Part shown: piece by piece, positions 10,561-63,600 of the stretch
How positions within the stretch are numbered: the first letter of the stretch is position 1
How the letters are laid out: each line of letters begins with the position of its first letter
Made by a program: the position numbers and the translations under genes
Source of the DNA: Bryoerythrophyllum caledonicum
Taxonomy: Eukaryota; Streptophyta; Bryopsida; Pottiales; Pottiaceae
DNA length: 64,000 nucleotides
NCBI GenBank assembly: GCA_963971425.1
Contig: OZ020515.1
Span: forward strand, 36,408,371 to 36,472,370
Direction of reading: 5' to 3'
The notes under the pieces: generated by a model
Database searches by the model: none
Told to the model about the DNA's origin: nothing
What the model saw: the letters and a program-made list of their open reading frames with translations, nothing else

Positions 10561-10561
10561 C

Positions 10562-24929: not shown

Positions 24930-25990
24930 ACTTCCTAGACCATTTGATTAGTGATAGGACGATTGTGTTTTGCCCCGGGGTAAATGAGTGTTCTTTGTGA
25001 CTTTTTTTCATGAAGTTTGAATAAATCTTGGAATAATGGTATTTGCTTCCTTTACCGTTACTAATTTTTTTGGACATTGGGCTAATTTGGTCCATCCATG
25101 TAATAAAATATAGTATTCTTGGAGCATTGTCTATATGCTTTGCACCTACTCTAGAATGTGTAATTAGTTTTTGTGTTCACATGCGGATTTGAATTGGTTA
25201 GTTTCGGAAGTTAGCAAGTTAGTTTTGTAGTTCAGTAGTAAGATTGGGAAGTTACGTGAAAAGTTGGTTAAGAAGCAAATGTGACGTTTGGAATCTGGAA
25301 GTTAGGTTCAATTTTTGGATAAAGACTTAGTGGAAGATGGATTCGAGGCCAGACTGTGATAGTCGTAAGCCGAGGCAAGCTTGGTGCTACCTCTTTATTT
25401 TCTTTTGGATTTTTTTATTTCTTTGTGTAGGATTGTAATAAGATGAAGTATGTATGGAATTGGAGTTAAGAAAGTGTGACTGTGTGATTGGAAGCGAAGT
25501 TATGAGTATTGTATGAGAATTGTGAAGATAGAAAAGTTAGCGAATGGAATTGTGAATGTGAAGCGATTGTAATCTCTGTGAAAGAATTGGTTATTGAAAG
25601 TGATTACGAGATATAATCACGTATTATTGAGTATACTATACTGTGATTACAGTGAAGAAAATAGAAATTGACGTGATTATGAGATCATGAAGGAAAGAGA
25701 ATTGGAGAATAATTAGGTTTCGAGTGATGCAAGAGAGTAATTGAATGATAGTAATTGTTAAGAGAAGTTAGGAAGCAAGCGTGTAATCAATCGTGACAAT
25801 AACATAGTGACCTTCATATCAACAGTCTTTCCCCGCAAACGAATCCACCTATACTGATTTGCTGCTTTGGGTTTATTTCCAATCAAACCAAAATGATAAC
25901 TACACCTATAAATGTCTATATATATTGATACTTAAAAGATCATATATCTTCAAAATCACGGAAATCTCCCAATATAACGAATATGGTGTT
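24930..25990 (+). other. 3' flank of copy A, with about 770-bp insertion relative to copy B
   Basis: 24930-25138 and 25912-25990 match, in order, the reverse complement of 46550-46835 (for example ACCATTTGATTAGTGATAGG and CATATATCTTCAAAATCA). Between them, 25139-25911 has no counterpart in copy B and is bounded by CACCTAC / CACCTAT. It is G- and A-rich on the + strand, with no ORF and no visible terminal repeats. Homology to copy B ends near ATATGGTGTT at about 25990. Confidence 0.8.
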
Positions 25991-36657: not shown

Positions 36658-38320
36658 GTGAGTAGTAGGAGGAGCATCATGTTCAATGAGGAGATGGAAG
36701 TTGACAAGTTGGTTGTACAAAAAGTCACAGCCCCAAAAGAGAAAGGCTCCAGGCGAAATGAAGAAGAACCAGGGAGCATCAAGAAGAGCAAAAATGCCCA
36801 AGATGACATGGGAAAAAAAGGTATGGCACTCATCACCACCCCTGACATCAGTTGCTTCAAATTTTGGCTAGGTTTCCAAGTGATTGAAGACCTAGCTGTG
36901 GAAGAGAGATTGGATGAGCTCCTATACGAAGAAACAATCGAAGACATGGTGACCAGAGGGCTCAATGAGAATGAAGCCCGAGAAGTCAAGCAAACACGAA
37001 TGGCCTTCTCACACATCCCACAGATTCACTATCCACACTCGAGAGAGGCAGGTGGCCTAGGAGGGCAACACTACAACCTCACACAAGTGCCAACCAATTT
37101 TCTTGTGGATGAAGGTACGGGTTTAGCTTTAGATTTCCAAGTTGCTATCCATTTTGAACTACCCACTAAGCCCATTTTGCATGATGAAGTCAAAGAGATG
37201 GTTTCTAATTAACCGCCTCAAAGACATGGACATCCCTCTTGGTAAGAAGCTCATTGAACCCATTTCAATTCATTGCTTAAGCATTAAACAAGGAGGAGGG
37301 AAAAAAGGTGTTTGGTCAAGACTAATCAAACTAGACCTTGCTAAACCGGCGATTGATGGCCTACTCCTCCTCAAAGGGATTAGACCCTTCATTCTCAAAA
37401 TCGATGAGGTCAACGTGGTGGGAAAGGTATGTAAAACTAACCATAGCATTGCTCATCATTCTAGCTTATCAGTCAAAATTCAAAGTCCTTCCTTGCATAA
37501 CATTGCCGCTAATCACCTCTTTAAAGAGGTCCTTGAATCTAGCTTTAAACGTGGGCATGACTTTGAAGTGACTAGCATGCAAAAGGCAAAAGGAGATGGC
37601 TTTGCCTTCATCTTGACCACCACCCCGCAACAAGCCAAGAAAATCCAAGAGCTACAAGTAACCGCACGACAAGAAATCATGCAAACAAAGAAGCCCCTTG
37701 GAGCAACCCACATCACCAAAGAAATGAAGGCTAAGATAGACGCTCTCACCCTAACACTCTCCCACCTCCCTATACTTATGAATGTTATTGAGACCACTAA
37801 TGCTATCCATACAATTGTGGGAAACTCCAATGTTTGCTCTATTTGGTTTCACAAGGACAATGGAGTTTGCCATAATGGAAGTGCAAATGTGGTGTGTGCT
37901 AACCCAATCGTGTATAGAGCATTCGCGGGGAAAACCATTCCCATAGGTAGCCACTTCGTGGAGTTTGCTCCTCATAGAAGGAGCATCGATGGAATTGAGC
38001 CTCCCACCCAAGCCCAACTCATAGAGTTTGGCTTTGAAGACATCAACAAAGCCATCATTAACATGGTAGAGACCTTCAAACTTCACAACCCATCCCAAGC
38101 AATCACCAAGAAGGACCTAGTGGAGGCGTTTGAAGCAAACAAGAAGATTTTGAGGCAAGAAGTCAAAGAACAAGCGGAAGCAAAAGCCAAAGAACTCCAA
38201 GAAATCAAAGACCAAATGTTGAAGATCCAAGAATGTGTCCGTACCACCTTTGTAATGTTGCAAAACATCACGGGGTCCAAACCTCACACCTCAATTGAAG
38301 AAGACTTGTCAAAAATGTGA
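36658..38320 (+). pseudogene. LINE ORF1 (gag-like), frameshifted
   Basis: The first part (36658-37212) holds a basic leader (KEKGSRRNEEE) and DISCFKFWLGFQVIEDLAVE. The frame shifts near 37195-37210, and the second part (37142-38320 frame) continues with RLKDMDIPLGKKLIEPISIH, LLLLKGIRPFILKIDEVN, a central helical part and a C-terminal coiled coil (EVKEQAEAKAKELQEIKDQ) typical in position for LINE ORF1 proteins. The stop at 38318-38320 overlaps the start of the ORF2 frame (38317). No zinc knuckle is visible. Assigned as ORF1 by position before an ORF2 with 2A, endonuclease and reverse transcriptase parts; the domain itself is not recognised. Confidence 0.6.
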
Positions 38321-39330
38321 AGAAAGACAACCTCAAGGCCAAAGACTCAACACCTCACCCGTATTTTATAGAATACGACCGCAGTAGAATACATCTAGCC
38401 ACTACCCATACATACTATAAATCTATACTAATACTTGGTAGCACCTATGTAGTATTTTCCACCATATATACGGAGATTTATACATCAGTATACATGGTAG
38501 AATACATAAATACATACAAAGACATATACCCCACAAAACATACTATATACAATATACATATGGTATACATACACTGTATCAAATCAAAGAATAAAAATAA
38601 AAACAAAAACAAATACTATAACAAATATTGTGTACACAATACAAATACATGTACATGTACATGTACTATACAAAACAAAAATACTGACATTTGTACAAAT
38701 ACCTATACAAATATAAACATCAGTATAAATACCAAAATATATACTAATACAAACATTAAAACTTGTATAAACTCCAACACATACAATACTAACACCACAT
38801 ATAAAAATAATAATCTACATACCCCTTCATATACCAACATAAACCCACATAAATATACTCTCAAACATAACAATCACATACACACGGGGACCAATACAAA
38901 GAAAAAAATAATAATAATAATAACAATAATAACAACAAAAGATAAAAACAACCAAATACACATACATCTATACACCATCAAAAAAACAAATACAAATTCG
39001 CAAATAAACACATGGCCACGTAAAAAGTTAATAACAAATATAACTACACCCAATATAAAAATGAAAAACAAAGAATGCAATACCCTCGTACAAAATACAA
39101 ACACCCCCCTCCCCCCAAACCAAAAAAATCACAACAACATAAAAAAGATCCCTAAAAATATATACAAAACAATTACTCTAGAATATTACACCAAACATAT
39201 ACACCACATACTCCTACTGCTTCTAGAAGGAAAAATAGAAACCAATCCAGGATCCCTACCTACCATACTAAAAAAACACCTTGCTCCACACAAAACAAAT
39301 ACAAAAAATACATCATACCTAACACCATAA
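38317..39330 (+). pseudogene. LINE ORF2 N-terminal region with 2A-like motif, copy 1
   Basis: Extremely A-rich and strand-biased. The encoded protein is low complexity (N, T, I, Y and K) and contains ACATGT repeats at about 38645. Near its end is LLLLLEGKIETNPGS, a diverged 2A-like ribosome-skipping motif (consensus DxExNPGP), followed by LPTILKKHLAPHKTN, which parallels copy 2 (MLNISKRYLVPHQKN at 43722). The frame stops at 39328-39330. Similarity to copy 2 continues, with stops, to about 39545, where the CCGGAA element interrupts it. Confidence 0.6.
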
Positions 39331-43670: not shown

Positions 43671-46550
43671 TACAAAATACTAATACTAATTGGAGGGGAC
43701 ATAGAGACTAACCCTGGACCTATGCTGAACATATCAAAAAGATACCTCGTCCCACACCAAAAGAATGCCAAAATATATTTTATTCCAAATACCATTAAAC
43801 TACAACCCGAATATGAACACATCTCAAAAAATTTTGCCCCCCTCCTCAACACCACACATATATTACACCATCAAGATAATCACACATACCCACACATAGC
43901 CATATATATAAATCAAGATAACGAATATCCTCCATCCCACATTTTATACGTTCTAGTCACCACTATACACCCTAACATAAACCTCTGCAACCAATTCTTG
44001 AACACACAAAATCAAAACATAACTCAATGGGCCAATACACTCCTATACACACTAAAAAACCTACAAAATCCTCTCGAAAGACACATAAATATCCCACATC
44101 CCTACACAACATTTCTTGAAACAAATCTAAATGCCATAAACCACAACACATCAATAAATAAAGAACTATATGACTTTATACACAATCAAAATACACCTCC
44201 AACAAATGACACAATAAAACAAAAATTCCCCTACCTCCCTAATACAATCATAAATGCGTCACTAAAATGCCTAAACCCCCTCCTGGAGTACTCACATCCA
44301 CCCCCACCGCAGAACCCGATCCCACCACAAACCAGAACCCACAAACGAATAACAACAACACAAGCATAATAACATGGAACGCCTCATCCCTCCACACCGC
44401 GCTCCCAAACTTACAAAACATCATTTCACACACTAACACACCTCGGGCACTCATAGTCATACTAGAAACAAAAATATCGGCCACAAAATCCACAAAATAT
44501 ATACAAAGACTATTTCCTGACTACAAACTTATCTTCAATAATACACATACTCTAACACGTTGCATACAACAAAGAAGACCATACACACCAGGCCGAGGGG
44601 GCCTCCTCACTCTTATACACAAAAATTACGCCTTTCGAGGCAATGTCAAAAAAATACCTACCCCAATGGACATATCCCCATACATCCAAATTTTGGAAAT
44701 CTCCAATCATCCACTACAACCATGGCTAATCTACCACATATACATGCCATCCCACCCTGAAGACATCAGACTCATCGAGGACATTAAAACCAACATCACC
44801 ACCCATATTACCAGCAGCCCCAACCACAATCACATCTTATGTGGTCACTTTAATAGAGACGTTGCCCTCATAGGTAGATAAAACAAAAACCAACATATGC
44901 CACCACAAATAATAGACCTACACTGGAAACAATTTATAGAAAACCTAAACTTTAATTATATTCCCACAAACACTACATACTCTAGACAAGGAGGACACAA
45001 CTATAGCAACTCGAGCCTAATTGATGGATTCTACGTCCGAGCAAGTAACCAAACCACATTTACGTCCACTACAAATAACAACATCCATCTAAACTCCGAT
45101 CATTCACCCATACAACTTCACATCCCAAACAAACACATTTATAAACCGTACACCAACCAACACAAATAACGACCACATACGTATCCTCAACCCCATCCCA
45201 CAAAACAACATAGAATTATTCAACACAAAATTCTTCGAGGAAAATTCAATACGCATTGACTCCCTAATAGACAAACTAGAATCAAATAACAATCTCTCCC
45301 AAACGCAATGGCAAGTAGCCTGTCACAACCTTGATACTCTCATCAACAACATATCCAATTTAATTGAACAAACGTGCAAAGCCCAACCCATACCACAAAT
45401 GACAAATCAAACATCACAACAAGGTGGATATCTACCCCGAAAACTATCAAAAACATGGAAACAACACTTAACCACTTACCACACCATAAGAAAAACCATA
45501 AGAACCGTAAATAATAACCCCCAATGGAAAAACCACCCTATCCTCAACGAACTCCAAAACCTTCAACATACACAAATTCCCAATCCACCCCCCATACATA
45601 CACCGCATGATACATGGATAAAAAACATAGCACTAATTGCAAAAAATGCCAACATACAAGCCCGAAAAATAACTACCAAACACACCCAAGAGAATATTCA
45701 AAAAGCCATCTCCAAATACATACAACTATATGAAAGTAGCCCCAAAAAAATAAACAAAAGAGTATTCAAAACTATAGAGTCCCCACCATTAGATTGTATC
45801 ACTGACCAATATAACAATATACTAACTAGCCCAGAAGATATTGCAAACAAAATTTTTAACCAACAAACAAAAAACAAGACACCTATGGTAAAAACATGCA
45901 ACTATCAACCGGACCACCGCACTACATGCACATGTGTAGTACGACAATACCCATGGCACGACCAAGATGGATTCACACTGGAAAAAAGAGGGGACCCGGA
46001 AAACCCACTACACACATACTTTAATCAAGCTACATATGACACTTGCCTACGTATCCTAGGAAACAATAAAGCCCCCAGCCCGGACCGCATACCGAACTCC
46101 ATATTAAAAAATATGCCCCCAAAGTTCCACAAACTACTAAACCTCTTCTTCTCCCACTGTTATAAACAAAAACAAATCCCTACTTCATGGAAAACAAGTG
46201 CAACAATCCTACTATACAAAAAAGGAGATCCATCCATACTACCCAACCATAGACCCATTGCATTAGCCAATACCATCTATAAACTATTTACAAGCACACT
46301 CACATCAATACTATCATCATATGGCAAAAAACATAAAATACTACACGATAGCCAAGAGGGGTTCCGTGCAAAAAGAAGCACCGCTAGACAAATCCAAACA
46401 ATAATAGCCGCATTAGAAGATGCAAGATTTACAAACCAAGACATATTCATACTATATGTTGACTTCAAAAATGCCTTCGGCTCCATCGACCACGCTAGAC
46501 TTTTGGCCAGAATGACGGACCTTGGATACCCCACAGACGCCACCAACACC
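43671..46550 (+). pseudogene. LINE ORF2 copy 2: 2A, endonuclease and partial reverse transcriptase
   Basis: Starts with ILILIGGDIETNPGP (43677-43721), a complete 2A-like motif, then MLNISKRYL. An APE-type endonuclease follows (about 44360-45150) with ITWNASSL, ILETKIS, LCGHFNRD (usual GDFN altered), LIDGFYV and SDHSPI. Reverse transcriptase runs from about 45400 to 46540: NNKAPSPDRIPNSILK, YKKGDPSILPNHRPIALANT, SQEGFRAKRSTARQ and VDFKNAFGSIDH (motif A). It is cut before the YxDD box, where sequence changes at about 46545 to copy B flank. Lesions: a frameshift near 44300, TAA at 44879-44881, a frameshift near 45150. A 2A motif before APE endonuclease is known from CR1/L2-like and other animal LINEs; clade is not assigned here. 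Confidence 0.8.
43677..43721 (+). other. 2A-like ribosome-skipping motif
   Basis: Encodes ILILIGGDIETNPGP with the invariant D-x-E-x-N-P-G-P. The final proline is followed directly by ATG-CTG (MLNIS). If active, translation would skip the glycyl-prolyl bond and release the upstream protein. Confidence 0.75.
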
Positions 46551-46835
46551 ATATTCGTTATAATGGGAGATTTCCATGATTTTGAAGATATATGATCTTT
46601 AAAGTATCAATATATATAGACAATTGTAGGTGCAAAGCATATCAACAATGCACCAAGAATACTATATTTCATTACATGGATGGACCAAATTAGCCGAATG
46701 TCCCAAAAAATGGTAACGCTAAAAGAAACATGTACCATTATTCCAAGCTTTATTTAAAACTTCATGAAAAAAATAAAAAACAACACTCATTCACCCCGAG
46801 GCAAAACACAATCGTCCTATCACTAATCAAATGGT
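46550..46835 (-). other. 3' flank of copy B, containing the empty insertion site
   Basis: The reverse complement matches the sequences on both sides of the gypsy element of copy A: left side ...CTTATGGTGGAACTCC, right side GTAGACCATTTGATTAG. The site of insertion in copy A is thus uninterrupted here at about 46838. The end of this block at about 46550 is the junction with the LINE. Confidence 0.85.
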
Positions 46836-47078
46836 CTACGGAGTTCCACCATAAGCTTCTATATGCGTCTTCAAAAAAGCCCTCTGACATTGCCTTGTCC
46901 ATGTTGCGCCATTCTCTTGCATTAATGGACTCTCTAGAAGACGCTGCAAACCCCGCCTACGTACCTCGTCACTGTTTGATTTGGGCAGCGAGTGCCGGCG
47001 AGAGGGGGAAGGAGAGCATTTGCCTCTAGCAACATCTCCTGACAAAGTTCGGGGACGGAGACATTTACCGAATGATTC
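46836..47078 (-). CDS. Possible terminal exon of the fusion gene
   Basis: Follows TTGTGCAG. Encodes ESFGKCLRPRTLSGDVARGK and a basic stretch including RRRGLQRLLESPLMQENG, ending in YGGTP and TAG. Phase 0, matching the exon 47648-47331. It is open here, whereas copy A carries TGA after 17 codons. Conservation of splice borders in both copies supports it as an exon. No domain recognised. Confidence 0.5.
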   Translation of the reverse strand, partial: ESFGKCLRPRTLSGDVARGKCSPSPSRRHSLPKSNSDEVRRRGLQRLLESPLMQENGATWTRQCQRAFLKTHIEAYGGTP

Positions 47079-47330
47079 CTGCACAATAGGCGCCACACAC
47101 AATCCAAAGAAATACACTTTAGGTCGAATGTTGCTACACAACACACTTTAGGTCAGATGGAGCTAAAATGCAAAAGGAATGATCCATAGAGCACATTTAA
47201 CCCCAAACAAAAAAACAAGCTCAAATGAACCAAAACTACATTAGTGCAATGTAGCTCAACAACAAACCAAAATTGTCTAGGCCAAAACATCACAATAGTG
47301 CAATAAATTGGAGGTCATCATAACACGCAC

Positions 47331-47648
47331 CGCAAGCGAGCGTTGGGAAGTACCATCCCTTAAACCGTCGTAGAGAATACGCTTTGCTGGAGTACAATTA
47401 TCCGGATTTAAAGGCGGGGACCCAGGAACTAAACAAGGCCACTGCGGCGAAGGCGAGTTGTTCCTATCATGAATTGGCTCCCGCGCAATAGGGCTTTCAA
47501 CAACTCCGTCGTCCACTGCCATGGTCGAATAATCCATGGTTGATTGCGCGGTTGCAGCAGAGTGCAACAAAAGCCCTTTACTCCGAAGAGAAAAGACGAA
47601 CTCCTCTGGCCCTAGCAAGGAATCCACGGACGCCCGACAGTCACAGTC
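47331..47648 (-). CDS. Possible penultimate exon of the fusion gene
   Basis: 318 nt, same length in copy A (9715-10032), open in both. Acceptor TTTCTACAG, donor G|GTGCGTG. Encodes DCDCRASVDSLLGPEEF and a low-complexity, S/P-rich segment (MDYSTMAVDDGVVESPIARE). Phase 0 at both ends. No domain recognised. The preceding exon ends in a stop, so its link to the gene is unresolved. Confidence 0.5.
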
Positions 47649-47916
47649 CTGTAGAAATTTCAACCACAGCGACACTCACATACCTTAGAACAATAGATGA
47701 AAATTCCAATCATTCAAAATAGCACGACATTCCATCAGCAGTAGATATCCAATTCCCACAACAAACAAAGCGGTGAAACATCTCAGTTTCATTTATAAAA
47801 AAAATATACACAAAAAATGGCCCAACAAAATTTACAACATCGAGCTGCAGTCAATCGATACAGTTTAGCTCTATGCGACCTAAAGTGTAGAGGGCATCTA
47901 AGCGTTCCCAACGGCA

Positions 47917-48711
47917 TTAAGAGCGGAGATTTTGAAACGCTTGGATTGCGTTCCAGATACTCGCAGACTGACCACACGTCTTCTGATCATTATAAAACAT
48001 CTCCCGGCGAGAGGGATGTTTGGCCCGGTACTGCGCTAGACCACCCGGAAACCGATGAAGGTCAGAGAGATATGGCAGCAATTCCTCCAACAATACAAAG
48101 TCGTCTCTCGTGCCAACATGTTTGTGCGACCATGATGGAAGAAGAAGGACGTTCTCCGGCAAATTGAGCATGTGCTTAATCGGGCTGTCGTCAATGACAA
48201 GCGTATTTGCCGGAGTATACTCACGACCCAACCTATTGAAGAGATGGCTCGATAAGGTCTTCAAGAAGATGTCCTTCTGAGTGCCAGATTCCTTCATGTA
48301 GAATGTTCTGCTACCGACTCTACGCTCGGGAACCCTATCGCAACTCTCCTGACCAAAGATCCTGAGAGGGTACGAAGAACTATGCTGAAAAAGATAATTA
48401 CATATCTGACGCGTTGTAGATTCCATCATCGAACTCCAGATCGTGATGGTGGCAATCTTAGACAACTTCGTAAGGAATTCAGCACAACCAGGGCGCACTC
48501 GATTTAGTTTAGGGCCTACTTTGGCCGGCAGCGAAGCCGAGTGAATGGACGGGATAGAGCCCCTGGATCCTCTGGCCTGCCACGACGGCTCACACGTGCA
48601 TAGAATCCCATTGAGGTCCAGCACAATGTTCAACCACCTGCCCTCGATATCTGAATGGACTCGAGGTATTTCTTCTAAATTATTGGCATCATTTATTGAT
48701 GCCTCGCCGAC
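47917..48711 (-). CDS. FCP1-type HAD phosphatase-like exon
   Basis: Acceptor CCGAACCAG, then VGEASINDANNLEEIPRV and the FCP1/NIF-type HAD domain: motif I NIVLDLNGILC, motif II region TITIWSSMMEST, motif III/IV LVIDDSPIKHMLNLPENVLL, and a C-terminal FVLLEELLPYLSDL. FCP1-type phosphatases act on phosphoserine, classically of the RNA polymerase II C-terminal domain, using DxDx(T/V); here the second aspartate is asparagine (DLN), so catalysis may be weak or lost, as in other plant LDLNG relatives. About 245 residues from the exon start to the end of the domain. The exon ends at TAA 47919-47917. Confidence 0.85.
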   Translation of the reverse strand, partial: VGEASINDANNLEEIPRVHSDIEGRWLNIVLDLNGILCTCEPSWQARGSRGSIPSIHSASLPAKVGPKLNRVRPGCAEFLTKLSKIATITIWSSMMESTTRQICNYLFQHSSSYPLRIFGQESCDRVPERRVGSRTFYMKESGTQKDIFLKTLSSHLFNRLGREYTPANTLVIDDSPIKHMLNLPENVLLLPSWSHKHVGTRDDFVLLEELLPYLSDLHRFPGGLAQYRAKHPSRREMFYNDQKTCGQSASIWNAIQAFQNLRS

Positions 48712-48854
48712 CTGGTTCGGAAACGCCAGGAGAACGACCAATATTACTACAGATTCATTAACAATGACGAATCAACAATACGTAGAACGAAAGAGATAAA
48801 TGGGGGAGGAGTGATGGGGGAATGAGTGGAGTTCGAAAAGAGTTAGAAGAATAC

Positions 48855-49084
48855 CTCGAGAACTTCATCGTCCTGCAACATTTCGTCTCGGGCACCCATC
48901 GATCCCAACGAACCCTGCATGCTGTCAAGGGGCCCGGAGTGCCCGACATCCATTTGGGGGCACGGTTCTGGGACAAGAAGAGGTGGCTCAGAATCATGAT
49001 TGATCTCGTCTACGAGCACGGCTGAAACTTGGACGACCTCTTCTATGACTGGTTGAGCAATCGCGTCATCACCGAAACTTAGAT
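48855..49084 (-). CDS. Linker exon before the FCP1-like domain
   Basis: 230 nt, acceptor TTTTTCCAG and donor GAG|GTATTC. Its first two bases complete a codon begun by the last base of exon 3 (G + AT = Asp), giving DLSFGDDAIAQPVIEEVVQV. Acidic and P/M-rich, no domain; ends MLQDDEVLE. Copy A retains only the last 38 nt. Confidence 0.7.
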
Positions 49085-49294
49085 CTGGAAAAATTCAACA
49101 ACTTCACCCTATCAGCGGATGGGTACAGAAGACACGGATACAAGTCACAGTGGTTAGATGTCAAGCAGTTTAGCTCGAGTCGAGCTGAAGTGCTCGCCGT
49201 GCACTGTAATATTAACAAAATAAATACTGGAGTACAAAATTGGACATGTACAAAATGTTCTGCCTCTATACACTCGCAACTACGTTACACTAAC

Positions 49295-50252
49295 CTGACG
49301 ATGAGCTGGGGACATCTGCGATAGATTCGTCCCGATCGGGCGACTTCGGAGGGGAAGAGGGGCGGACCGATGCGGAAGGGTGAACAGGAAGCAATCTAGC
49401 CCCACTGGAGACGGGGGAGGTGCCCGACGGATATGGTAGCTGCAAATCGAGAGACGGACTCGCAGACCCGCCGTCCGGTGATGCGGGAGGCTGGGGGATT
49501 GCAGCAATAACTACGGGCGGTGCTGTGGCGGCAGTAGGCAAATTAGCCGACATGAATCTCTACATCATGAGCATCATCTCGGCATGCCTCTGATCTTGGT
49601 CTCTCTTCATTTCATCGTCATGCCTCCGCTGCAGATCCCTGAGCTCCTCGTCGCGCTCCGCAAGCCGCTGCTCCATCAACCTCATCCGGGTGGCCTCCTC
49701 TTCGAGCTTCTTCTCAAGGGAGATCAACTTGTTGTCATCCTGAGCGCTGCTCGCGATAGCCAATGGAGAGCGCGTGCTCGTGCTAGCAACCTTCTTCTTC
49801 TTGGCCGCCGGGCGAGCGGTTGAAGCGCCCAAGGTAGGAGCTGAATGAGGCCTGTCCGAAATCTCCAACGAGTCCAACTCCGGGAAATCGAGTCGTTGTC
49901 GCGAGGATGCGATTGTGTCTCCTGCTTCAGATTGAGAGGCACTCTGAAACTCAGGCGGAGTAGCGTTAATGAAGACGTCCTGGGACTCATTATCCGGAGT
50001 GACGGTGCTCGAGATCGGGCACGCAACCACAGCGCTCGGCTCCGCATCTTCCTCCTCATCGCCGAGGTCAATAATGGCTTTCCCCTTCCCCTTTCCAACG
50101 GCATCTCCAAGCTCAGGGAAGATCTCCGAGTTGACGTGATACGCAGAAATATCGAAATCGGCCCAATCCAACGTCAAAGCGACCTCAAAGGCGTCGTTGA
50201 GATCCTGCTCATCGGTGTCGTGAGAAATGCAGAATGCCTCCAGGTCCAGAAT
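49295..50252 (-). CDS. Exon 3: end of methyltransferase-like fold plus charged/proline linker
   Basis: Acceptor TTAGTGTGCAG. The first residues ILDLEAFCISHDTDEQDLNDAFEVAL follow directly on exon 2's FGGTKLLTMSV; together they fit motif I and the following acidic strand of a Rossmann methyltransferase. An acidic/basic region (GKGKGKAIIDLGDEEEDAE), a KKKK patch and a clear coiled coil (KLEEEATRMRLMEQRLAERD and QRRHDDEMKRDQ) come next. TAG at 49562-49560 interrupts, then the same frame continues with RFMSANLPTAATAPP, a P/S/A-rich stretch, to a donor at SSSSG (G|GTTAGT). CAG to TAG would explain the stop. Confidence 0.65.
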
Positions 50253-50527
50253 CTGCACACTAATGGATTGAACAAGATTCAATTTAGGTCGAGCGAGCTA
50301 AACTCACTACAAACAATTGCTCGTACGAAAACTCAGCTATTATAACTTCAAAAGATACGAACGAAGTTAATGACATCCATAAAATCGTACAAGTAAAAGC
50401 CGACACTTTAGCTCAAGTCAAGCTAAAGTGACACCAAGTGAGCATAGGCAAGACCTCTTTGAAACTAAGAGGTCAGAAAGGGAATAAACAGTTTAGCTTG
50501 AGTCGAGCTAAACTGCAGGATGCTTAC

Positions 50528-51895
50528 CACACTCATTGTCAGTAATTTTGTCCCGCCAAACAGCTGGACAACAAAATCCCCCCTCTTGCAGAACAGCTCC
50601 AGGACCTTGATGAAGAACTCCATCCTCAGCTCGTTCAAATTCATGGAGTACGCCAACTCGTTGTACTTGCGCAGCTTCGTGTACAACACATGCTCTGGAG
50701 CTGCGTAGATCTTCTTTACGGCCGGGATCACCATAAGCTCCTTCTTGAAGAGAAAGAGGAGCCGAACCGGGTCTAGAGCGTTGTTGGTCTTCGACGCGAA
50801 TCCTCCGAGGCGCTCGTTCTCGGAAGGAAGATACTTCGACTGCAGCACATCGTATGCATGGCACAAGGACGGGCCCTCAGCAAACGCTGTCACTTGAAGG
50901 TGTGACTGCTCGTTGCCGCAAATGAAGAGCCAGGCTGGAAGATCGGTGAGGGGAGGTTGCCCTTTCGATGCGAACATCGTCATGAACTCGTCGAAGAAGG
51001 GCCTCTCCAACGACGACGATGACGTCCCAGAGAACCCAGGGATGTTCCGGAAGTCGATGATGCCGAGCTTCACATTGCAGCCCAGGTTGCGCCACGAGTC
51101 CGAAGGCCACATCCCGAGCGAATTTGTTGCCGCCTTGTAAGAACGGAAGTGCAGCGCTCCCACTGGTGAAACGAACCGCGACCGCACATCGATGAAGACT
51201 CTGAAGAACTCCTTCGCGTACGGAGAGAGATCTTCACATTTGCAGTTGCGAAACTGCGTCTGCCTCGAGTTGGCGTAGTACGAATCCGGTGGACCCCAAT
51301 CCAAGAGGGCACGCTTGGAGGCCTTGCTGACGTTGTAGTTCTTCTTGAACGTCCGCCAGTTTGAACGTTTGTACGCTCCAGTGCTGTTGAAGAAGGCCAG
51401 CTCCGGCCTGATCAGTTGAAGCTCCATCCAAGCGACCTCCTTCTTCTTCCTCCGATCCACCCAGTCCCGGGCTGTATAACAATCCTCCAGCGCAGAATTT
51501 GGCAGCTTGATGACCACCTTCGGGTAGGGCAGTTTCCGAGATGGCCCTGATAGATTGAGAATGTGCTTGCACATTTTCGCGTAATCGGCTTCGGTCATGT
51601 TGCCGAGAAACTTGAAGAATTCGCGCATCAAAACCCCATCCTTCTCAGGAACCCAAGACTTCGCGTCCTTGAACTTTGCCAAGGGCGTCGAAGTTGAATC
51701 GACGTTGATGAGGACGCCATGCGCCGCAGAAGAGATGACATCGGACCAGAGCTCGAAGGTTTCATCTGTTGCGGTGATGATCTTCACCTCGTTCGTAATT
51801 GAAAGCTCCTTCGCCTTCCCGGCTTTCTTGAGCGCCGCCTGGCTCTTCGCAACGTCGATCATTGCGAAGCGCTCACGAACCGCGTTAAGAAATGG
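50528..51895 (-). CDS. Exon 2: DNA methyltransferase-like (beta, N4/N6-type) domain, degenerate
   Basis: 456 codons in one open frame (acceptor GCGCAG, donor GTG|GTAAGC). PFLNAVRERFAMIDVAKSQ begins it. LLDWGPPDSYYANS (about residues 190-203 of the exon) resembles motif IV (DPPY) but starts GPPD. FFRVFIDVRSRFVSPVGALHF fits the following strand-turn (usual R-V-L-K-x-G-G). VLELFCKRGDFVVQLFGGTK at the end fits the approach to motif I (D-x-F-x-G-S-G). This IV-before-I order is that of beta-class N4-C/N6-A methyltransferases. The substitutions leave activity doubtful. Alternatives are an unrelated Rossmann-like domain; a structure comparison would decide. Confidence 0.5.
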
Positions 51896-52122
51896 CTGCG
51901 CTGAACATAAATAGGGTCGATTGAGTTTACAACTAAAGTAGAAAAATATTCATATCGAGTAGGGTCCAAATACTGCAAGTTACCTCGAGTCGAGCTAACT
52001 TGCAACCCTTGAGCAGACAATGACGATTTCTTAACTATACATATGACTGTACAGATACAGAGCGCATTTGCACTTTAGCTCGAGTCGAGCTAAAGTGCAT
52101 GACATAAGTTATGATATGTTAC

Positions 52123-53560
52123 CTCAAACTTCTTGTCATTTGCAATCTCCGCTACCGTCCTCCGACCTGACTTGTGAGACCCGCGAACGCCTGTGGCGGA
52201 GTGCTTCGGCATTGGTCTCCTAGCTTGGATCCACAAAGCACGGGAGTCAAGGATATTTGTTGCCCACGTCGGCTTGAACTGGACCAAATGATTCACGCGA
52301 TTATAATACGCGGAAATCTTCCTCAGCTTCTCCGGATCTTGCGTCCAGACAATGTAACATTGCCATGTTCGAAAGTGCCTTCTCATCACCTCCGGAACGT
52401 TGCCGTTAATCATCTCCTTTGAGGCTGCAACGCTGTGCTGGCCGTTGATGATGTAGAAGTCGCAGTCGCTGAGCTCCTCCACAGTCGTCGGCATAGTGTC
52501 GAGCTTCGGCATGACGCAGAGAGTCTGCTTCTGCGTCTTGTCTGGCATTTGGAGGTAGTAATGCTTCAACTCCTCCATGCCCCGAGGCTCGAACGCACGG
52601 ATCATCCACTCCGGCGGTGCATTATGCAACCTCATCACGTCAAGCTCGATCTTCATCTCTCTGTCGCCTTTGAAAAAGCAGCTTTGACACTCCGTCCAGA
52701 ATTTCTGGTAAATCTGTTGGACGTTGTTGTAGTCGATTGTCTCTCCGTATCCGAGCGCCTTGGGGAGCTCCGAGAGTGCAGAGGCCATCGACCATCGAAT
52801 TGGCTAGCTCCTCCTCCGATAGGAGCTTCGACTTCTTTCTTGAAGAGGTCTCCGGCTTCTTGGCAGCTGACCGCTTCTTGACGGGGGAAGCAGACAGCGT
52901 GTTGCGCAGAGTGCTTCGACTTGTTCTGGCACCTGGAGTTCTAACCGGTACCGACGCTTGACTCATGTCCTGGCTACCGGTCACGGCCCCCGAAACCGTA
53001 GAAAGTTCTATCGGGCGTCTTGCCGCGATATTCTTCGCCTTATCTAGAGCGGCAAAGGTACTCATTCTAGAGAGAATGACGCGCAGTTTATTAGCTAAAG
53101 CCTTTACTTTCAGCGGCTGTCCGCTACTAGTCTCCCATTTCTTAAGGGAGATCTCATGCTCGACCTGAGTCACTATTTCTTCAAATTTGGAAGACCTAAG
53201 AGAATCGACCAAATCCAAGATACAGAAGGGAGATGAACTATTGTTTACTATAATAGTAAAGAAATACGGATCTAAGGACTCAGTGGTCGTCTCACACGAC
53301 AACTTAACGTGATCGTTATCTTCGTGGACTACATCAGTAACTTTGGTCTTGAAGTCGATGTGCTGGGGATCGACGATAGCACCAGCGAAGGTCTGACCAA
53401 ACACTAAATGATCCGTGTAGGTCGCCCACAGAAGCGTCCACTTCAGTGTCATCGATGGGTCCTTCAGCTCCCAGCAATTCAAGTGGTTGTTGTTGTCTCC
53501 ATCGTCATCGTCAACGTCGACAGGCTTTGGCTGGAAGAAGTGCTGCAGCTGCGACACCAT
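52123..53560 (-). CDS. Exon 1: unknown N-terminal region plus ParB-like domain (frameshifted)
   Basis: ATG at 53560 (CAT on +) is preceded by TTGTGCAG, so an upstream exon is possible. About the first 150 residues (SQLQHFFQPKPVDVDDDDG, WATYTDHLVFGQTFAGAIV) are unrecognised. A basic, S/T-rich linker (KKRSAAKKPETSSRKKSK) follows. Near 52790 a 1-nt shift links SEEELANSM to SALSELPKALGYGET. The ParB-like part follows: DCDFYIINGQHSVAASKEMI (DGQHR-type motif with N, Q, H kept) and YYNRVNHLVQF (NRxxH). The exon ends NDKKFE|GTAACA at 52123. The length, 1438 nt, becomes phase 0 when one base is removed. ParB-like domains bind DNA or nucleotides; the role here is unknown. Confidence 0.6.
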
Positions 53561-53584
53561 CCTGTCCCTCTCAGATCTGCACAA

Positions 53585-54850
53585 ACACGAAACAGAGCAA
53601 AGATATTAGATTGCTCTATTGATCATCCGATTAGGATGGCGAGGTCACACATTAGCTCGACTCGAGCTAAAGTGTACTGATATTCAAGTATGTGAGTAAT
53701 ACTCTAAAACAAAATTTAGTCATTTAGAACGTTCTCTTAGACGCTTACAATCAACTCATACCTACTTCTCGTTCAACTCTCAGAAATGTGGGAGAGCTTC
53801 ACTTCCCCCTTAAATCACTCACGAACCTCACTCTTAGAGGTTCTCAAGTGGTTGAAGCGGGACTGAAGCTCTTGCACGATTTATGAGAGGTGAACGGAAA
53901 GTAGACGTCAGTTGAGTTAGGAGACTGCAATTACACCAATGTATCAATGATGTATTCAAGTTTTAGCTGCATCTTTAGCTCGACTCGAGGTAAAGTGCTC
54001 ATGCATGGAATGCATAGCTGAACAGTTCTGACACTTACAGAATTCATTCAAACAACTTTCCTATACATTGTTATTCAAATCATGGCTACTTCTCGTTCAA
54101 CTCTCAGAACTGCGAAAGAGCTTCAGTTCCGCTCTAATCACTCACGAACCTCACTCTTTGAGGTTCTCAAGTGGTTGAAGCGAGATTGAAGCTCTTGCAC
54201 ACATGTGAAAATATAACGAGAAGTTGACATGAGTTGGGTCGTCGGTATTATTGGTTTACTATACTTTTGGACTGTTTAAAGTCTGAATGTTGTTGTGTTT
54301 GAGTTGTTCTTTATGTTTATTCTCTTACACTTTAGCTCGATTCGAGGTAAAGTGTGTTGGCTTTACAGAGAGGTTATGACATATTTCAAACCCAGTGTTT
54401 GAGAGTTTATATTAAGATTACATTTCCAGGAGTCGCTTTTATGTCAACCGAAGACGTACTCAGTCGTAAATTTTAGCTGGAGTCGAGCTAAAGTGGGACT
54501 TTTCTGTGCACATTTGGCACACTTACGCTCTAGTTGCGCCAAAGTGCACTTTCGTGTTTGCTTCATTGATCACACTTTACCTCGAGTCGAGTTAAAGTGT
54601 GGCCAGATGTGCACAGAAAAGGTCCACTTTAGCTCGACTCAAGCTAAAGTGTGGATATTAGTGCACAGTGGAGGCATACTTTAGCTCGAGTCGAGCTAAA
54701 GTGTGGACAATAGTGCAATATGGATTTCCCACATTAGCTCGACTCGAGCTAAACTGTGTTCAATGAATAGCGTATTCATCGCAGATTGTACAGATTCGTT
54801 ATTCGTTATATGATACTGAAGGCGTAGGGTTTAGGGCTCCTGGGTGAGAG
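53585..54850 (-). promoter_or_regulatory. Palindrome-rich upstream region of the fusion gene
   Basis: Eight family-1 palindromes fall here, six within 54328-54756. It also holds a tandem duplication, about 53763-53876 and 54088-54200, each copy containing its own inverted repeats (AGAGCTTCA ... TGAAGCTCT and AACCTCACTCTTAGAGGTT). No ORF. Position 5' of exon 1 makes it the likely promoter region, but I cannot point to a TATA box or start site. Confidence 0.5.
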
Positions 54851-54939
54851 TATGGATTTTACCTTTCAGCCATTGCTTATGAACCTTAATCCCAGACAAA
54901 TTTTGCTGGAACTAGACTTCCTGCAACAACAATTACAAA

Positions 54940-55260
54940 CCCACACACAAAATCAATCAAAGTAGCACATGGAAACCAAAACATTGAAATCTTTCACATT
55001 GAAATCAACACTTTCAAATGGGCACATTGAAATTCAGCACTTTGAAATAAACACATTGAATTCAGCACATTGAAACAATGACATTGAAACCAACACATTC
55101 AAACTAGCAGAAAGTAGCACATTTACACCAGCACAAACCAGCACATTTAAACTAGCACAACAAATATCCACAAACCACCACAAAACCACCACATTCAAAT
55201 CACCACATTCAAATCATCACATTCAAACCAGCACATTGAAACCAATACACACTCTCATCT
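54940..55260. repeat. Degenerate tandem repeat of CACATTGAAACCA type
   Basis: About twenty imperfect units of 15-18 bp around ACACATTGAAATCA / GCACATTCAAACCA. No coding content. Confidence 0.75.
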
Positions 55261-55479
55261 ACGTGGTGACACATACATCAAAAGCAATGCTACACATATA
55301 TTATATTTCAACACATCATATCAAAAGCAAAACTACACAAATATCAAAAGAAATGCAAGACTGAATGAGTGCACTTACCTTTAAAACTGAGAAATCCGAC
55401 TGGAAAAGCTGGAAGTCTTGTTACTTGTTCACGTCAATCCTCCACGCACGGCCGTTTCAGACTCTACGTGCTCACAGAA

Positions 55480-55745
55480 ACTCACAGCAACTCACACACA
55501 CTCACAGAAACTCACACACGCTCACAGAAACTCACACACACTCACAGAAACTCACACACACTCACAGAAATGCACACACTCACACAAACTCACACACTCA
55601 CACAAATTCACACAAACTCACACACGCTCACAGAAACTCACACACCCTTGCAGAAACTCACACAAACTCACACAAACTCTCACAAACTCACACAAACTCT
55701 CACAAACTCACACAAACTCTCACAAATCTCACACAATCTCACGCA
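55480..55745. repeat. CACACACTCACAGAAACT minisatellite
   Basis: Tandem units of about 20 bp (ACTCACACACACTCACAGAA) grading into 10- to 20-bp CACAAACTCT units. The three + strand frames through it are open by composition and are not considered genes. Confidence 0.9.
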
Positions 55746-57415
55746 AACATCCCTAAACTCTGGCGCTACAGTGTACACGAAGTCACACAACAACAATAAA
55801 TCGCACGTCCTACAAACCCTATGCGCAGGAAACCTTAGACTCCAGAAATTGCACGCGGAACCTATACACAGCGCTACAGTGTAAAAACATAACAATCCCT
55901 GTAGATAATGAAACTAACACAAACTAACGCATCAACTCACAAAACTCACATAACATCAACGCCTGGAAGTACACGGAAAACCTGGACTGCAACGAAAAGA
56001 CTAGAAAAATGGCTCGCGCCACGACTTCGTGGGGAAGTTTCTGGGCCACCTAAAGCCGTGAGGGTCGAGACCCTGTGGCCGTTTGGTGGTCCCGAGATAC
56101 CCTCGGGATACCCTTCGCGATATTGGGGTGTAACTCCCAGGTATTATGCCGGATGCTCCACAAATCCTAAACCTTCATTACTGATACCCGGACTTTTAAG
56201 AAGCCAATTTAATTTTACCAGAATAAGTTCAAGATATTACGCGCCTGTAGTATTTGTGTACTCGTAAATTTCCAACACAATTTTCCGGAGCCATTAACAC
56301 TACAATTTTGCATATTTTGGGGCAACGAACACGTAGCAAAAGGAAAATGATTATTTCCACTTTCATTCGTATGATCTCAATTAAAACTTCTAAATTGACA
56401 TTTTCTTAATAATACACAAACTTAAATTGGACGAAAGTGAACGCTTATAGTATTTAGTGTTTAGTTTTTTTTCATGGTTTTAGTGGATCAGCTGGCTTTC
56501 ACTTCACTCGATTTCAATTTTTGCATTACACAAGGAGTAAATTCATTACCATCGATATATATAAGTTCCTCCTACACCAATTATTAGGTGAAGCACACTT
56601 AAGAGAGTTTTAAAGCTACGATTTTAAGATTCTATTACTTTGAATTCAAGTTTTGTTTTTTTATGAGTTTGATATTATTTTCTATGACAATCGAACAGAC
56701 AATAAGTATGTTAAGACCACATCTTGCAATTGTATAATTAAAAAATAAATGCCGGTGCACACTTTAGCTCTAATGGAGCTAAAGTGTGCGTATTTGCTTT
56801 ATAGTTCCCTACATTTACTGATGGTGTACACTTTAGCTCTAATAGAGCTAAATTGTGAATTTTTTCTGTACTTTTCACTTCAGTTTGCTTTTACTGTAAC
56901 GGTACAAATACAGTTGTTAGAGCATCTCCACCCCTGACGGAGAATTTTCCACGCCAGCGGGAAGGTGCCCAAGTTTGAGATGAAGTGAGGGGGGCACTGG
57001 TGATTTTTCACAAGGTCCCTAACATGTCCCGAGACATGTTCTGAAAAAAAAAACATTTCCAGTGGACGGGTTCTCTGAAAATGAACCGGTTTTTGGACGT
57101 GTCAAATTCACTTTGGACGGGTTCTAAAAATAATTTTTTTTGACAATTTTTTCCCCAAAAAATGAATGATGCAAATATCAATTACATTATGTCATATATG
57201 ACATGTGAATGTAAACATAATGGAGTCAAACCACTAATACCAAATCAAAATACCAATCTTCAAAAGGCTGGATTCACCTGCACACATTGATTCATCAACC
57301 ACAATATTTAGAACACAATGTCAAAGATTTAAATTGAAGGTAAACTAAGCAATTGTATAAAAATTTAGTTAATATAAACATATTCAATTTTTACAAAAAA
57401 AAAAGAACTTACCAT
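55746..57415. other. Intergenic stretch, nothing coding supported
   Basis: Contains two variant family-1 palindromes (56760, 56829) and a segment near 56920-57140 beginning GAGCATCTCCA with GGACGGGTTC repeats, possibly an old MITE. The short frame at 55908-56267 has no features of a gene. Confidence 0.4.
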
Positions 57416-60681: not shown

Positions 60682-63600
60682 TCACTCCTTGTATTCTTTG
60701 CATCGATTGCCCGACGTTCGCGTGGGGAAATCCTCGCCGTTTAGGGTTTGAAGTTGAACGGAGTTGTTGGGGAAGACCTCCTTCACGAGATAGGGTCCCA
60801 ACCACAAAGCATCGAACTTCTCTGGAAAATCCAATCTCCTCGCGTCTTGAAGGAGGACTAGCATTCCCGGTCTCAATGACCGGCCCTTGTTCTGTTTGTC
60901 GAAGGCAATCTTCCTCCTGCGTTGAATGGCTTCCATGTGTTGAGCGCTCCACCGACGCATCTCATCAAGCTCCTCCAATCGTTCTAACCGATCCGCTAAG
61001 GACGTGGCCATGGACCATCGTTCGGTCACGGCCACTCGCAGAGAAGGGTCTGAAGGGATCTCAAATTCTATTGGCAAAATGGCTTCAATGCCATATACCA
61101 ACGAGAAGAGAGTAGCATGGGTGGTTACTTTGAAGGTGGTTTGGTAGGCCCATAATGCGGCGGGGAGTTTCGTGTTCCAATCCCTCTTGGAATCGGTGAC
61201 CGTCTTCCTCAAAATTTTCACGAGGGTTTGGTTGACCCGTTTGGTATGGCCATTGGTTTGGGGGTGGTAAGGGGTGGTCTTACGATGGTTGATCTTGAAC
61301 CGGGTGGTTTGTCTAATGGGAGTAGTGCCCGGGAGAAGAGAATTGTGATGTTGTGTCACCGCCCGGGGAATGCCCTTGAGGTCTCTGTATGACCACGCAA
61401 AAATGTCCCGGAACTCGACAACTAGTGACTTGTAGTTCACCATCTCCACCTTGGTCAATCCAACATCTACCTTTATATTGCGGACTTCTTCGTCCTCATG
61501 AGAGACCACCAGCAACTTCCAATCATCATGATGCACGTGTGGTTGTTGAATAGGACCCTTGTACCAATCATTCGGAACTTGGGGGTATGTTGCCCCCGAA
61601 CCACTACCTAGAATACCGGTGGATGTCCTCCTAAAGTGGAGAGATGGGTTGAGAGGGCCCTCATCGATCAAAACCTCCAACTCCATCCTTTGTGTGCCAT
61701 TGACATCCATACCGAATACTGCTGCGGGTTCTAAGTCATCTAGGAGGGGGACAAGGCTAGGTTCCAACCCGGTCTCTACCTCAATCAACTCACTCTCCAT
61801 GAAATGCACGGACACAGCTTCGTCCGCGCTCGAGGTGGGGTGTTCTCTCAACCACTCTACAAATTCACCGCTAGGGACCCACTCATAAAGGCCCGGTCCC
61901 ATACTTTTGAACGGCATTACTTTGGCTTTCGAGGGTTGGGCTCTATCCACCGCCTTGTGGGGCGCAAACCTCACTTTTTTGGGAGGCTCTTTTGTTAGAA
62001 CCTCTTGTGATTCATCTTCGGAAGAGCCCATGCAACCGTGGCATAATCCTAGCCTACTTGGTTGGATATGGACCGTGGTAGGGTTCTCCGGTGGACCATA
62101 GGTGATGTTTGGTTTTGGGCCTCCCCATTCTACTGTGGCATTGGCAATTCGCAACCAAGGCCTACCTAGTAACAAAGGATATGCCTCCTTATTGGTGTGC
62201 ATTCGAATGACTTGGAAGGTGAGGGAATACTCTACCCCCCCCGTGGTAACTTTACAACCACTAATTTGGCCTAACGGGGCCTCCGAGCTTTGATTAGCCA
62301 TGTTGATGATGTACGGTGAAGGTTCCGTGATGTCAAGGCCTAGCTTCTCCATGGTTGAGAGGGGCATAATGTTCAAACCACTTCCACCGTCCACTAGTAC
62401 ATTGGGTACCACCTTGTCCACGATTGAGACTTCGATTTGAACCGCTTTAACCTCGATATTGGGGTGTGCGGATTTAACGCGGGCTGCCAATCTAACCCTT
62501 GCCTTAGGCCTCCGCTTCACTGGGGTGCCCGACCTAAGGACTTTCCTCATGGATGGTGACACCTCCAATAATTGGGCAATGGTGATGTCCGCCTTGAGGC
62601 GACTCAAATCCGCCCATAAATCGTACGGCCCTTCTCCCACGTTCTCCTCGCTATGTGGGAATGCGTTAGCTTCCGAACTAGGGATTGGTGGACCCTCCCA
62701 TGCCTCTTGGGAGGTGGATAATGGAGTTCGGAATTTAGGTGTTCCGTGTGAGGGCCTCAAGTTGGCCCGTCGAGTGCCTTTCACCGCCTCCTTGGTTGTT
62801 TCATTTAGGTCAGAAAAATGAGGTGAATCTTCCTCCGAGGTCTCACCATCCTCTGGTATGGGTGGAGGAGGACTTGAGTATCTTGGTTCCCGCCGGTTAG
62901 ACCGAGTTTGGACCGCCAACGCCGGCAACTCACAAGATTTTGTTTCCTTGGTTGTGCTAACCTCGTGAAACACTACATTGAGCTCTGTGAGGGAAGGACC
63001 TTGTGTGGATACGATGTCACTTGACATGGTGGCATAGCGCACATCCTGTGGACCTTGGTTTTGTTGGCCCCCGTGGTTTTGTTGGCCCCCGTGGTTTTGT
63101 TGGCCACCGTGGTTTTGTTGGCCACCGTGGTTTTGTTGGCCACCGTGGTTTTGTTGGCCACCATGGTTTTGCCCTTGGTTTATAGGGATGTAACCGTCCT
63201 TGGTATTAACCCCCATTGGGGAAGTTTGACTTTGGCGGTTATTGTTGTAGTCATAGTAGAGGCTAGGTGGCCTAAGGGTGTTATCGGTGGTGGGGTGACG
63301 TGCACCTCTAAAGTGGTCTTGGGCTTGTTGAGGATAGTTCCCCGGTGGGGAAGGCATGGGAATTACCTTGTCCGGCCTTCGACATACTTGGGTGGGGTGA
63401 TTACCCCCACAGTTACCACATACTACTCCACTTTCAACCCAACACTGCCCAGGTGCGTGTCTCTTGCCACAAGTGTGGTGGATTTCATACCGTGGTCGTG
63501 GAGGTCCCCCATAACCTTGGTTTGGTGGTGTATAGCCTTGAGGGCCATAGTTAGTTGCCACCGGTGGTTGATTCCTATGGGGCGGCACATACGGGGTTTG

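Follow-up and report, generated by a model that had tools for sequence, protein, structure and literature searches.

A large moss DNA transposon carries an accessory gene with ParB-like and FCP1-like parts and a candidate target palindrome in its non-coding DNA

What is a gene that appears to combine bacterial-type DNA-acting domains with a eukaryotic phosphatase-like domain doing in a moss genome? The question is raised by a stretch of 64,000 nucleotides from Bryoerythrophyllum caledonicum (contig OZ020515.1, positions 36,408,371 to 36,472,370; hereafter the window), on the minus strand of which an earlier note, made from the letters alone, had described a gene joining ParB-like, DNA-methyltransferase-like and FCP1-like domains. 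We call it gene B. Because of its copy number and the element ends that accompany it, gene B is not a single host gene; it belongs to a large DNA transposon, present in many copies, in which it has the place of an accessory gene. A palindrome recurs in the non-coding DNA of this transposon, and in the places compared its type pairs family-specifically with gene B.

Gene B lies in a high-copy DNA transposon

We compared the window copy with ten other copies from the same genome, for both borders and gene model. The match ended sharply at window position 46545, on the 3′ side, in 9 of the 10 copies, with differing flanks, and all 10 extended past the point matching 56997, where the window copy is cut. 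The window holds a truncated copy (46545..56997, minus strand) of an element of about 18.9 kb, with an intact end at 46545 and some 8.2 kb, including the transposase gene, gone beyond 56997; two full copies measured 18,858 and 18,818 bp, the far end being located by comparing both. A 29-bp inverted repeat stands at both element ends, alike at 27 of 29 positions in the copy compared; in the window it occupies 46545..46573 on the plus strand with no mismatch. Allowing up to two mismatches, we found 1021 + 1030 matches to this end repeat in the genome (2051 in total) and none to a reversed control. Perfect 4-bp target duplications (ATGT, ATAG, CTAT, TTAT, CAAT, CTAT, CTGA and CATG) were present in 8 of the 9 copies with both flanks; the ninth had none, and three further copies had one end only. 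In the first 100 element ends listed we counted 19 cases of neighbouring ends that face each other at no more than 60 kb; the spacing was 15–24 kb in 14. Exon 2 of gene B gave 1625 candidate places in the 437-Mb genome, and the best 93 of the 1625, which were scored, were 91–100% identical. A retrotransposon reading, held after the first border comparison, was dropped on finding the upstream end with its matching inverted repeat.

Target duplications of 4 bp liken the element to the Sola superfamily, and they also occur in other transposon superfamilies. Those found here are not of the AT-rich AWWT kind that the part of the source drawn on gives for Sola2 (PMC3627910).

Gene A is encoded on the opposite strand to gene B (positions 968-4084 in a full copy) and matched PF25273 (DUF7869) with an E value of 4.2e-41. 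Four of its aspartates (D417, D420, D542 and D584) were 97–100% conserved in an alignment of 117 homologues plus the query, as expected of a DDD-type transposase. We infer that gene A encodes such a transposase, which would give a probable function to DUF7869, a family mentioned in no paper in the literature searched. Its named relatives come from the mosses Physcomitrium patens and Ceratodon purpureus, which fits a moss host. Uncharacterised database proteins of these two species (P0015, P0017, P0021, P0050; P0206, P0211, P0215) probably belong to the same transposon group. In annotation, caution is due with genes of Physcomitrium and Ceratodon to which these domains have been assigned, as they probably belong to transposons.

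The window also contains relics of an older second copy of the element between 8934 and 25990, as pieces at 8934-10561, 24929-25149 and 25903-25990 that are 86–93% identical, are split by other sequence and supply a further end repeat at 25962-25990. A reading frame for a reverse transcriptase of the long interspersed nuclear element (LINE) type, recognised by eye at 45093-46595, runs directly into the transposon end at 46545; the element therefore probably inserted within a LINE copy. On contig C1, some end pairs of full size, for example 13680992-13697132 and 13950283-13968313, have a T-type repeat on both sides. The window family has a T-type repeat at one end and an A-type repeat at the other, and the T/T pairs perhaps represent sister families.

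Gene B is spliced and under selection

The five exons of the earlier note, with their GT–AG borders and matching phases, were confirmed on the minus strand at 53576-52123 (exon 1), 51895-50528 (exon 2), 50252-49295 (exon 3), 49084-48855 (exon 4) and 48711-47917 (exon 5), and the motif blocks that it quoted (NGQHS, IDDSP and others) are present in the sequence. The limits that it set for the gene, 46836..53560, needed revision at both sides: the start lies one exon further out, and 47675-46836 is a separate gene, gene C. The start exon (54863..54873, minus strand) contributes 11 nt of coding sequence from an ATG at 54873; all 10 other copies retain its donor GT. It is spliced to 53576, giving an N-terminus that resembles that of a Physcomitrium relative. 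Gene B has six coding exons, which amount to 4842 nt in 4 of the 10 copies compared. Across the ten copies, 95 of 100 exon borders read AG or GT as expected, 4 deviate and 1 was not found.

Exon 1 encodes an N-terminal region followed by the ParB-like part. Exon 2 encodes a domain of unknown type whose last ~35 residues resemble methyltransferase motifs X-I in degenerate form. A basic stretch resembling a nuclear localisation signal and a coiled-coil-like stretch, both recognised by eye, lie in exon 3; exon 4 comes from the splice model and the comparison of copies; and exon 5 encodes an FCP1/NIF-like HAD domain with D-L-N-G in motif I and the block IDDSP. Gene C, a small gene of two exons (approximate limits 46836..47675, minus strand), matched a reading frame of a related contig, L034, by BLASTP (E 1.5e-8) and had no Pfam match.

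In the window copy gene B is broken twice. Its exon 1 measures 1454 nt, against 1447 in 8 of the 10 other copies (1448 and 1455 in the remaining two), and the 7 extra nucleotides shift the frame ahead of the ParB-like part, near 52.78-52.80 kb; in addition, an in-frame TAG stands at 49562-49560 in exon 3. One of the 10 other copies reads through all six exons, start codon to stop codon, without a break. That a single gene joins the ParB-like and FCP1-like parts, as had been proposed, is supported by this open copy and by the exon order on L034.

We conclude that gene B is under purifying selection. For exon 2, the pooled ratio of nonsynonymous to synonymous change, uncorrected, was 0.19 across seven own-genome copies, one of which has two stops. 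Between L034 and a second related contig, L033, the ratio (dN/dS) was 0.145 for exon 1, 0.12 for exon 2 and 0.25 for exon 3. L033 and L034 (CADCWO010000269.1 and CADCWO010000243.1) are filed under a cyanobacterial metagenome genome; carrying spliced, moss-type transposon genes, they are probably moss contamination. On L034 the order of the window is kept, with exons 1, 2 and 3 of gene B, its FCP1 exon and then gene C, and exon 4 was not identified there. The exon 2 protein of the two contigs is 46% identical to that of the window.

Domains of the gene B protein

The FCP1-like domain of the earlier note was borne out by a match of exon 5 to PF03031 (E 6.2e-17; 62.2 bits, the cut-off being 21.8) over residues 29-220. 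The catalytic motif of FCP1/SCP phosphatases is DxDx(T/V). Gene B departs from it, having D-L-N-G instead: in a 122-row alignment the second motif-I aspartate was asparagine in 100 of 101 rows, so catalysis by this domain is doubtful. The gene B domain thus differs from FCP1/SCP (NLI-interacting factor-like) phosphatases in this residue and resembles them in its Pfam match, in its lysine, retained in 122 of 122 rows, and in its DD residues, which are largely kept. The exon 5 search found 127 homologues; the 120 listed do not exceed 66% identity, only a few of them are named, and none of these names is that of a plant host gene. Exon 5 matched no solved structure at E 0.001.

The ParB-like part spans about 52250..52788 on the minus strand (approximate limits), with IINGQHSVAASK and YYNRVNH blocks conserved in a 45-row alignment. 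No Pfam ParB or methyltransferase family matched gene B at E ≤ 1 among the families listed (25 of 28 families in one scan); DUF6551 was touched by two members, at E 0.026 at best. NCBIfam family TIGR03187 (DGQHR) gave a weak match in 1 of the 45 ParB-like members (E 0.0085), which was not recovered in the 23 members rescanned and belongs to one of the other 22. Since this single match was not recovered, we relied on profile comparison, using a DGQHR set of 36 reading frames from 30 bacterial loci. Against 22 diverse DGQHR proteins, the ParB-like part (32 rows) gave an HHalign P value of 1.1e-4, with a score of 39.3 over 111 columns and a probability of 57%; against all 36 frames the values were P 2.7e-4, score 37.2 and probability 42%. 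The NGQHS of gene B fell in register with DGQHR, serine replacing arginine. These scores exceeded every control run against the same profile: with the 22 proteins the reversed alignment scored 11.2, the best of 60 column shuffles 19.4, and the alignments of exon 2, the FCP1-like domain and gene A 26.8, 15.8 and 28.6; with all 36 frames the exon 2 alignment scored 30.9. There was no match to 15 near-identical DGQHR proteins (P 0.15). Taken together, the comparisons point, by profile only and with moderate strength, to a ParB-superfamily-like part in gene B; the assignment made in the earlier note is upheld by the DGQHR profile and finds no counterpart among Pfam ParB families at the threshold used. 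The part resembles the DGQHR/DndB group of the superfamily (TIGR03187) in the register of NGQHS and in the matching columns, and is unlike that group in its serine and in yielding no repeatable single-sequence match. Bacterial DndB has been linked to the control of DNA modification in the text drawn on (PMC10853773).

The methyltransferase-like part suggested for the same gene showed a short resemblance to real methyltransferases. Against a methyltransferase profile made from the usable reading frames of 15 of 30 fetched loci, exon 2 alone aligned over 25 columns (P 0.012; score 28.9, 25 shuffles reaching at most 28.6), and including the start of exon 3 lengthened the alignment to 35 columns, at motifs X-I, with P 0.0037 and a score of 30.9, where 40 shuffles reached no more than 27.7. 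The family does not keep the DPPY-like motif, which is replaced freely across 24 rows, and motif I is without the acid of DPF. With no Pfam family and only these 25-35 columns alike, a catalytic N4/N6 methyltransferase in gene B is unsupported.

The exon 2 profile matched no solved structure, and the ParB-like profile had one unrelated match (E 7.6). PADLOC gave 0 matches in 7 proteins and PHROGs weak matches only (best E 0.024), and none of 308 pattern stretches from viral contigs was confirmed as a relative.

A 27-bp palindrome outside the gene B exons

The palindrome CACTTTAGCTCGANTCGAGCTAAAGTG, 27 bp long, occurs at 18 sites in the window copy at up to six mismatches and at two more in the second-copy relics, making 20 in the window; its 21-mer core occurs 17 times in the window at up to three mismatches and 0 times in 100 shuffles. 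None of the 18 sites overlaps an exon of gene B, though exons fill 46.6% of the window copy, an outcome expected about once in 10^5 if the sites were randomly placed. Nine lie in the first intron, at 53648..53674 (1 mismatch), 53971..53997 (3 mismatches), 54328..54354 (1 mismatch) and in a six-site array at 54469..54756, with starts at 54469, 54520, 54573, 54625, 54677 and 54730, 51-53 bp apart. The next three introns hold two sites after exon 1 (51976..52002, 5 mismatches; 52071..52097, perfect), two after exon 2 (50404..50430, 2 mismatches; 50489..50515, 3 mismatches) and one after exon 3 (49166..49192, 2 mismatches). Two sites are upstream of gene B (56760..56786, 2 mismatches; 56829..56855, 3 mismatches), one is between genes B and C (47861..47887, 4 mismatches) and one is in what we take as the gene C intron (47144..47170, 5 mismatches).

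The two full copies contain 33 and 32 sites, with 0 in the reversed control; 12 and 11 of these are in the first intron of gene B, partly in 52-bp steps, the 12 spanning 10.37-11.66 kb of the copy with 33. Six sites stand beside gene A (3.95-4.39 kb), three near one end (497-642 of 18,858 bp) and one at 18,196. The site at 3953 of each full copy falls within the gene A open frame, ahead of the methionine taken as its start. Genome-wide we counted 1143 exact 27-mers of CACTTTAGCTCGANTCGAGCTAAAGTG and 0 of the reversed control, and 29 of the 50 sites listed are close to a listed element end or exon 2, compared with 7.8% of random positions.

The centre of the palindrome reads GANTC. This is a target of CcrM-type adenine methyltransferases, and its presence at the palindrome core may be due to chance. 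Upstream of the gene B start, at 55471-55748, a 10-bp repeat resembling CTCACACAAA also occurs about 28 times.

Placement outside coding sequence recurs in relatives. L033 and L034 have 16 sites in introns and flanks and 0 in gene B exons, which make up 64% of their sequence; one of the 16 falls within the open frame of L034 gene C, where it is taken as intronic, gene C being counted as non-coding. The sites of these contigs read TTCAGCTCGANTCGAGCTGAA, with both arms altered together relative to the window type, and window-type sites (at most one mismatch) are absent from both. For other homologues we looked at intron read-through tails, the end of the coding part being recognisable in 47 of the 60 rows considered. 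Palindrome peptides were present in 12 of 25 tails of at least six residues, while the 21,260 coding residues gave 0 hits.

The second palindrome type also occurs in the moss genome of the window, as 674 exact TTCAGC-type 21-mers (control 0), and so does a second gene B family, 50-59% identical to L034 exon 2 among the best 94 of 1581 candidates scored. In the search with L034 exon 2, three places reached 70-71% and a partial one 67%, and the lowest rows, at 48-49%, were left unassigned. On the part of contig C1 common to both lists, that is, to the first 50 sites listed for each type, 5 of 5 listed window-family copies had only TTTAGC-type 27-mers within 5 kb, and 4 of 4 listed second-family copies had only TTCAGC-type 21-mers (Fisher P 0.008 for 9 places, exact sites). 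We conclude that, in the places compared, palindrome type and gene B family go together.

Possible roles of the gene B protein

ParB-methyltransferase accessory genes have already been reported in algal transposons, and the element described here is therefore a variation on a known theme. The 21.5-kb Ectocarpus element Sola1-1_Ec32 encodes, opposite its transposase, a protein of 1104 amino acids with ParB-like and DNA-methyltransferase domains; ParB-type transposon proteins were proposed to bind and modify their own element, with no target named in the portion of the paper used here, the main text of which is without the words palindrom-, binding site, FCP1, phosphatase and moss (PMC12477816). 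Both are large DNA transposons (18.9 kb in the moss) with an accessory gene opposite the transposase that encodes a long multi-domain protein with a ParB-like part. New in the present case, and distinguishing it from Sola1-1_Ec32, are the FCP1-like C-terminus, a methyltransferase part that is degenerate at best, the land-plant host and the candidate target palindrome. A literature search of titles and abstract openings found no moss or FCP1-carrying element of this kind.

A second comparison is with VANC of the Arabidopsis VANDAL transposons. In the parts of the two sources considered, VANC21 binds short motifs in non-coding parts of its own element, introns included (PMC5735166), and VANC targets evolve with the protein, by tandem repeats (PMC5735166; PMC10398659). 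The moss element matches this pattern in several respects: a protein other than the transposase is encoded by the element; short motifs, partly in tandem arrays, are enriched in its non-coding and intronic regions and absent from coding sequence (here, the gene B exons); and motif and protein vary in step from one related family to another (here, at the 9 places). Unlike the 9-bp directional VANC motif, the gene B candidate is a 27-bp palindrome, and the two systems are likened by pattern, that of the moss being known from sequence alone.

Because the pattern matches the VANC system, we think on balance that the gene B protein recognises its own element through the palindromes and controls or un-silences it, the FCP1-like domain being a probable non-catalytic effector. 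In such a scheme the protein would enter the nucleus, pair through its coiled coil and bind the palindromes through its ParB/DGQHR-like part. Candidate targets would be the first four introns of gene B, the first above all, the interval between genes B and C, the region beside gene A and the sites near one end. Once bound, the protein may control the chromatin or transcription of the element, most plausibly by counteracting host silencing, with the FCP1-like domain, probably a non-catalytic binder, acting as the effector. CpG decay offers a weak direct hint of anti-silencing: across eight copies it was less frequent near the sites, at distances of up to 100 bp (22 of 935 cells), than elsewhere (131 of 3468), in an exploratory comparison of cells that are not independent.

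Several points weigh against this VANC-like role. The CpG comparison is limited in the way just stated, the family pairing rests on 9 places among the matches listed, and the resemblance of the ParB-like part to DGQHR proteins, seen by profile only, is moderate, with an HHalign probability of at most 57%. In the young family, conservation of the sites does not clearly exceed that of their flanks (0.0184 versus 0.0228; 16 sites lower, 8 higher). The same sites are linked to gene A, which may bind them in place of gene B, and those close to one end or next to gene A are also compatible with a role as accessory to the transposase.

The last of these points corresponds to a helper function like that of En/Spm TnpA, in which gene B would fold the element and bring both ends to the transposase, with silencing control secondary. 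Some DNA transposons do require a second DNA-binding protein, En/Spm TnpA being an example, and the three sites at 497-642 of the 18,858-bp copy and the one at 18,196 are suitably placed. We nevertheless consider this unlikely, as the majority of sites lie well away from the ends, the first intron of gene B having 12 of 33 and the next introns others, and intronic sites occur in relatives too.

A reading in which the palindromes serve as binding sites for gene A or a host factor, with gene B in an unrelated role and merely travelling along, is also improbable in our view. Among the proteins of the element, that of gene A is the one most surely acting on DNA, six sites stand beside gene A, and linkage gives it the same pairing with site type as gene B. 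The transposase, however, has its own 29-bp repeats at the ends, and site type segregates with the gene B families, though this does not separate B from A.

We give still less credence to the idea that gene B marks its own element by N6-adenine or N4-cytosine methylation, as proposed for the algal ParB-methyltransferase transposon proteins. In favour of such marking, methyltransferase motifs X-I fall in register with the last part of exon 2 (P 0.0037), and the site core contains GANTC, an adenine-methylation target. Also in its favour, the Ectocarpus protein has a methyltransferase domain (PMC12477816). Opposed to this idea are the lack of a methyltransferase family among the Pfam matches, the free replacement of DPPY, the missing acid in motif I and the score of exon 2 alone, 28.9 against a shuffle maximum of 28.6. 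Finally, the host gene of the earlier note, fusing a bacterial ParB-methyltransferase module to a eukaryotic phosphatase, had its domain content partly right and can practically be discarded in view of some two thousand element ends, the inverted repeats, the target duplications and a window copy that is truncated and broken.

Recognition of its own element by the gene B protein may be one instance of something wider. We regard it as possible, although the odds are somewhat against it, that moss transposons carry self-recognition pairs, in which a ParB-type protein and a palindromic password change together so that each of several families sharing a genome reads its own copies alone, and an inactivated FCP1 domain reaches the transcription machinery and averts silencing. 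If so, this would be a ParB-type transposon system, FCP1-based, with both protein and target identified. A likely target is in hand, as a 27-bp palindrome with two family-specific forms in one genome; this makes binding-swap tests possible and the idea of self-recognition or self-protection by such elements testable. The element adds a land-plant case, from a moss, and an FCP1-like pseudo-phosphatase to the ParB-type transposon proteins, and through gene A it links DUF7869 to a probable transposase function.

Further features of the window

A tandem repeat array with a 37-bp unit, ~86-90% alike and open in several minus-strand frames, occupies 1-8122. Pieces of a Ty3/gypsy-like polyprotein and integrase were recognised by eye at 60682-63999 and 21695-23107. 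Peptides resembling 2A, also found by eye, occur in the reading frames at 43671-44369 (GDIETNPGP) and 38299-39330 (GKIETNPGS), the former standing ahead of a LINE-type reverse transcriptase.

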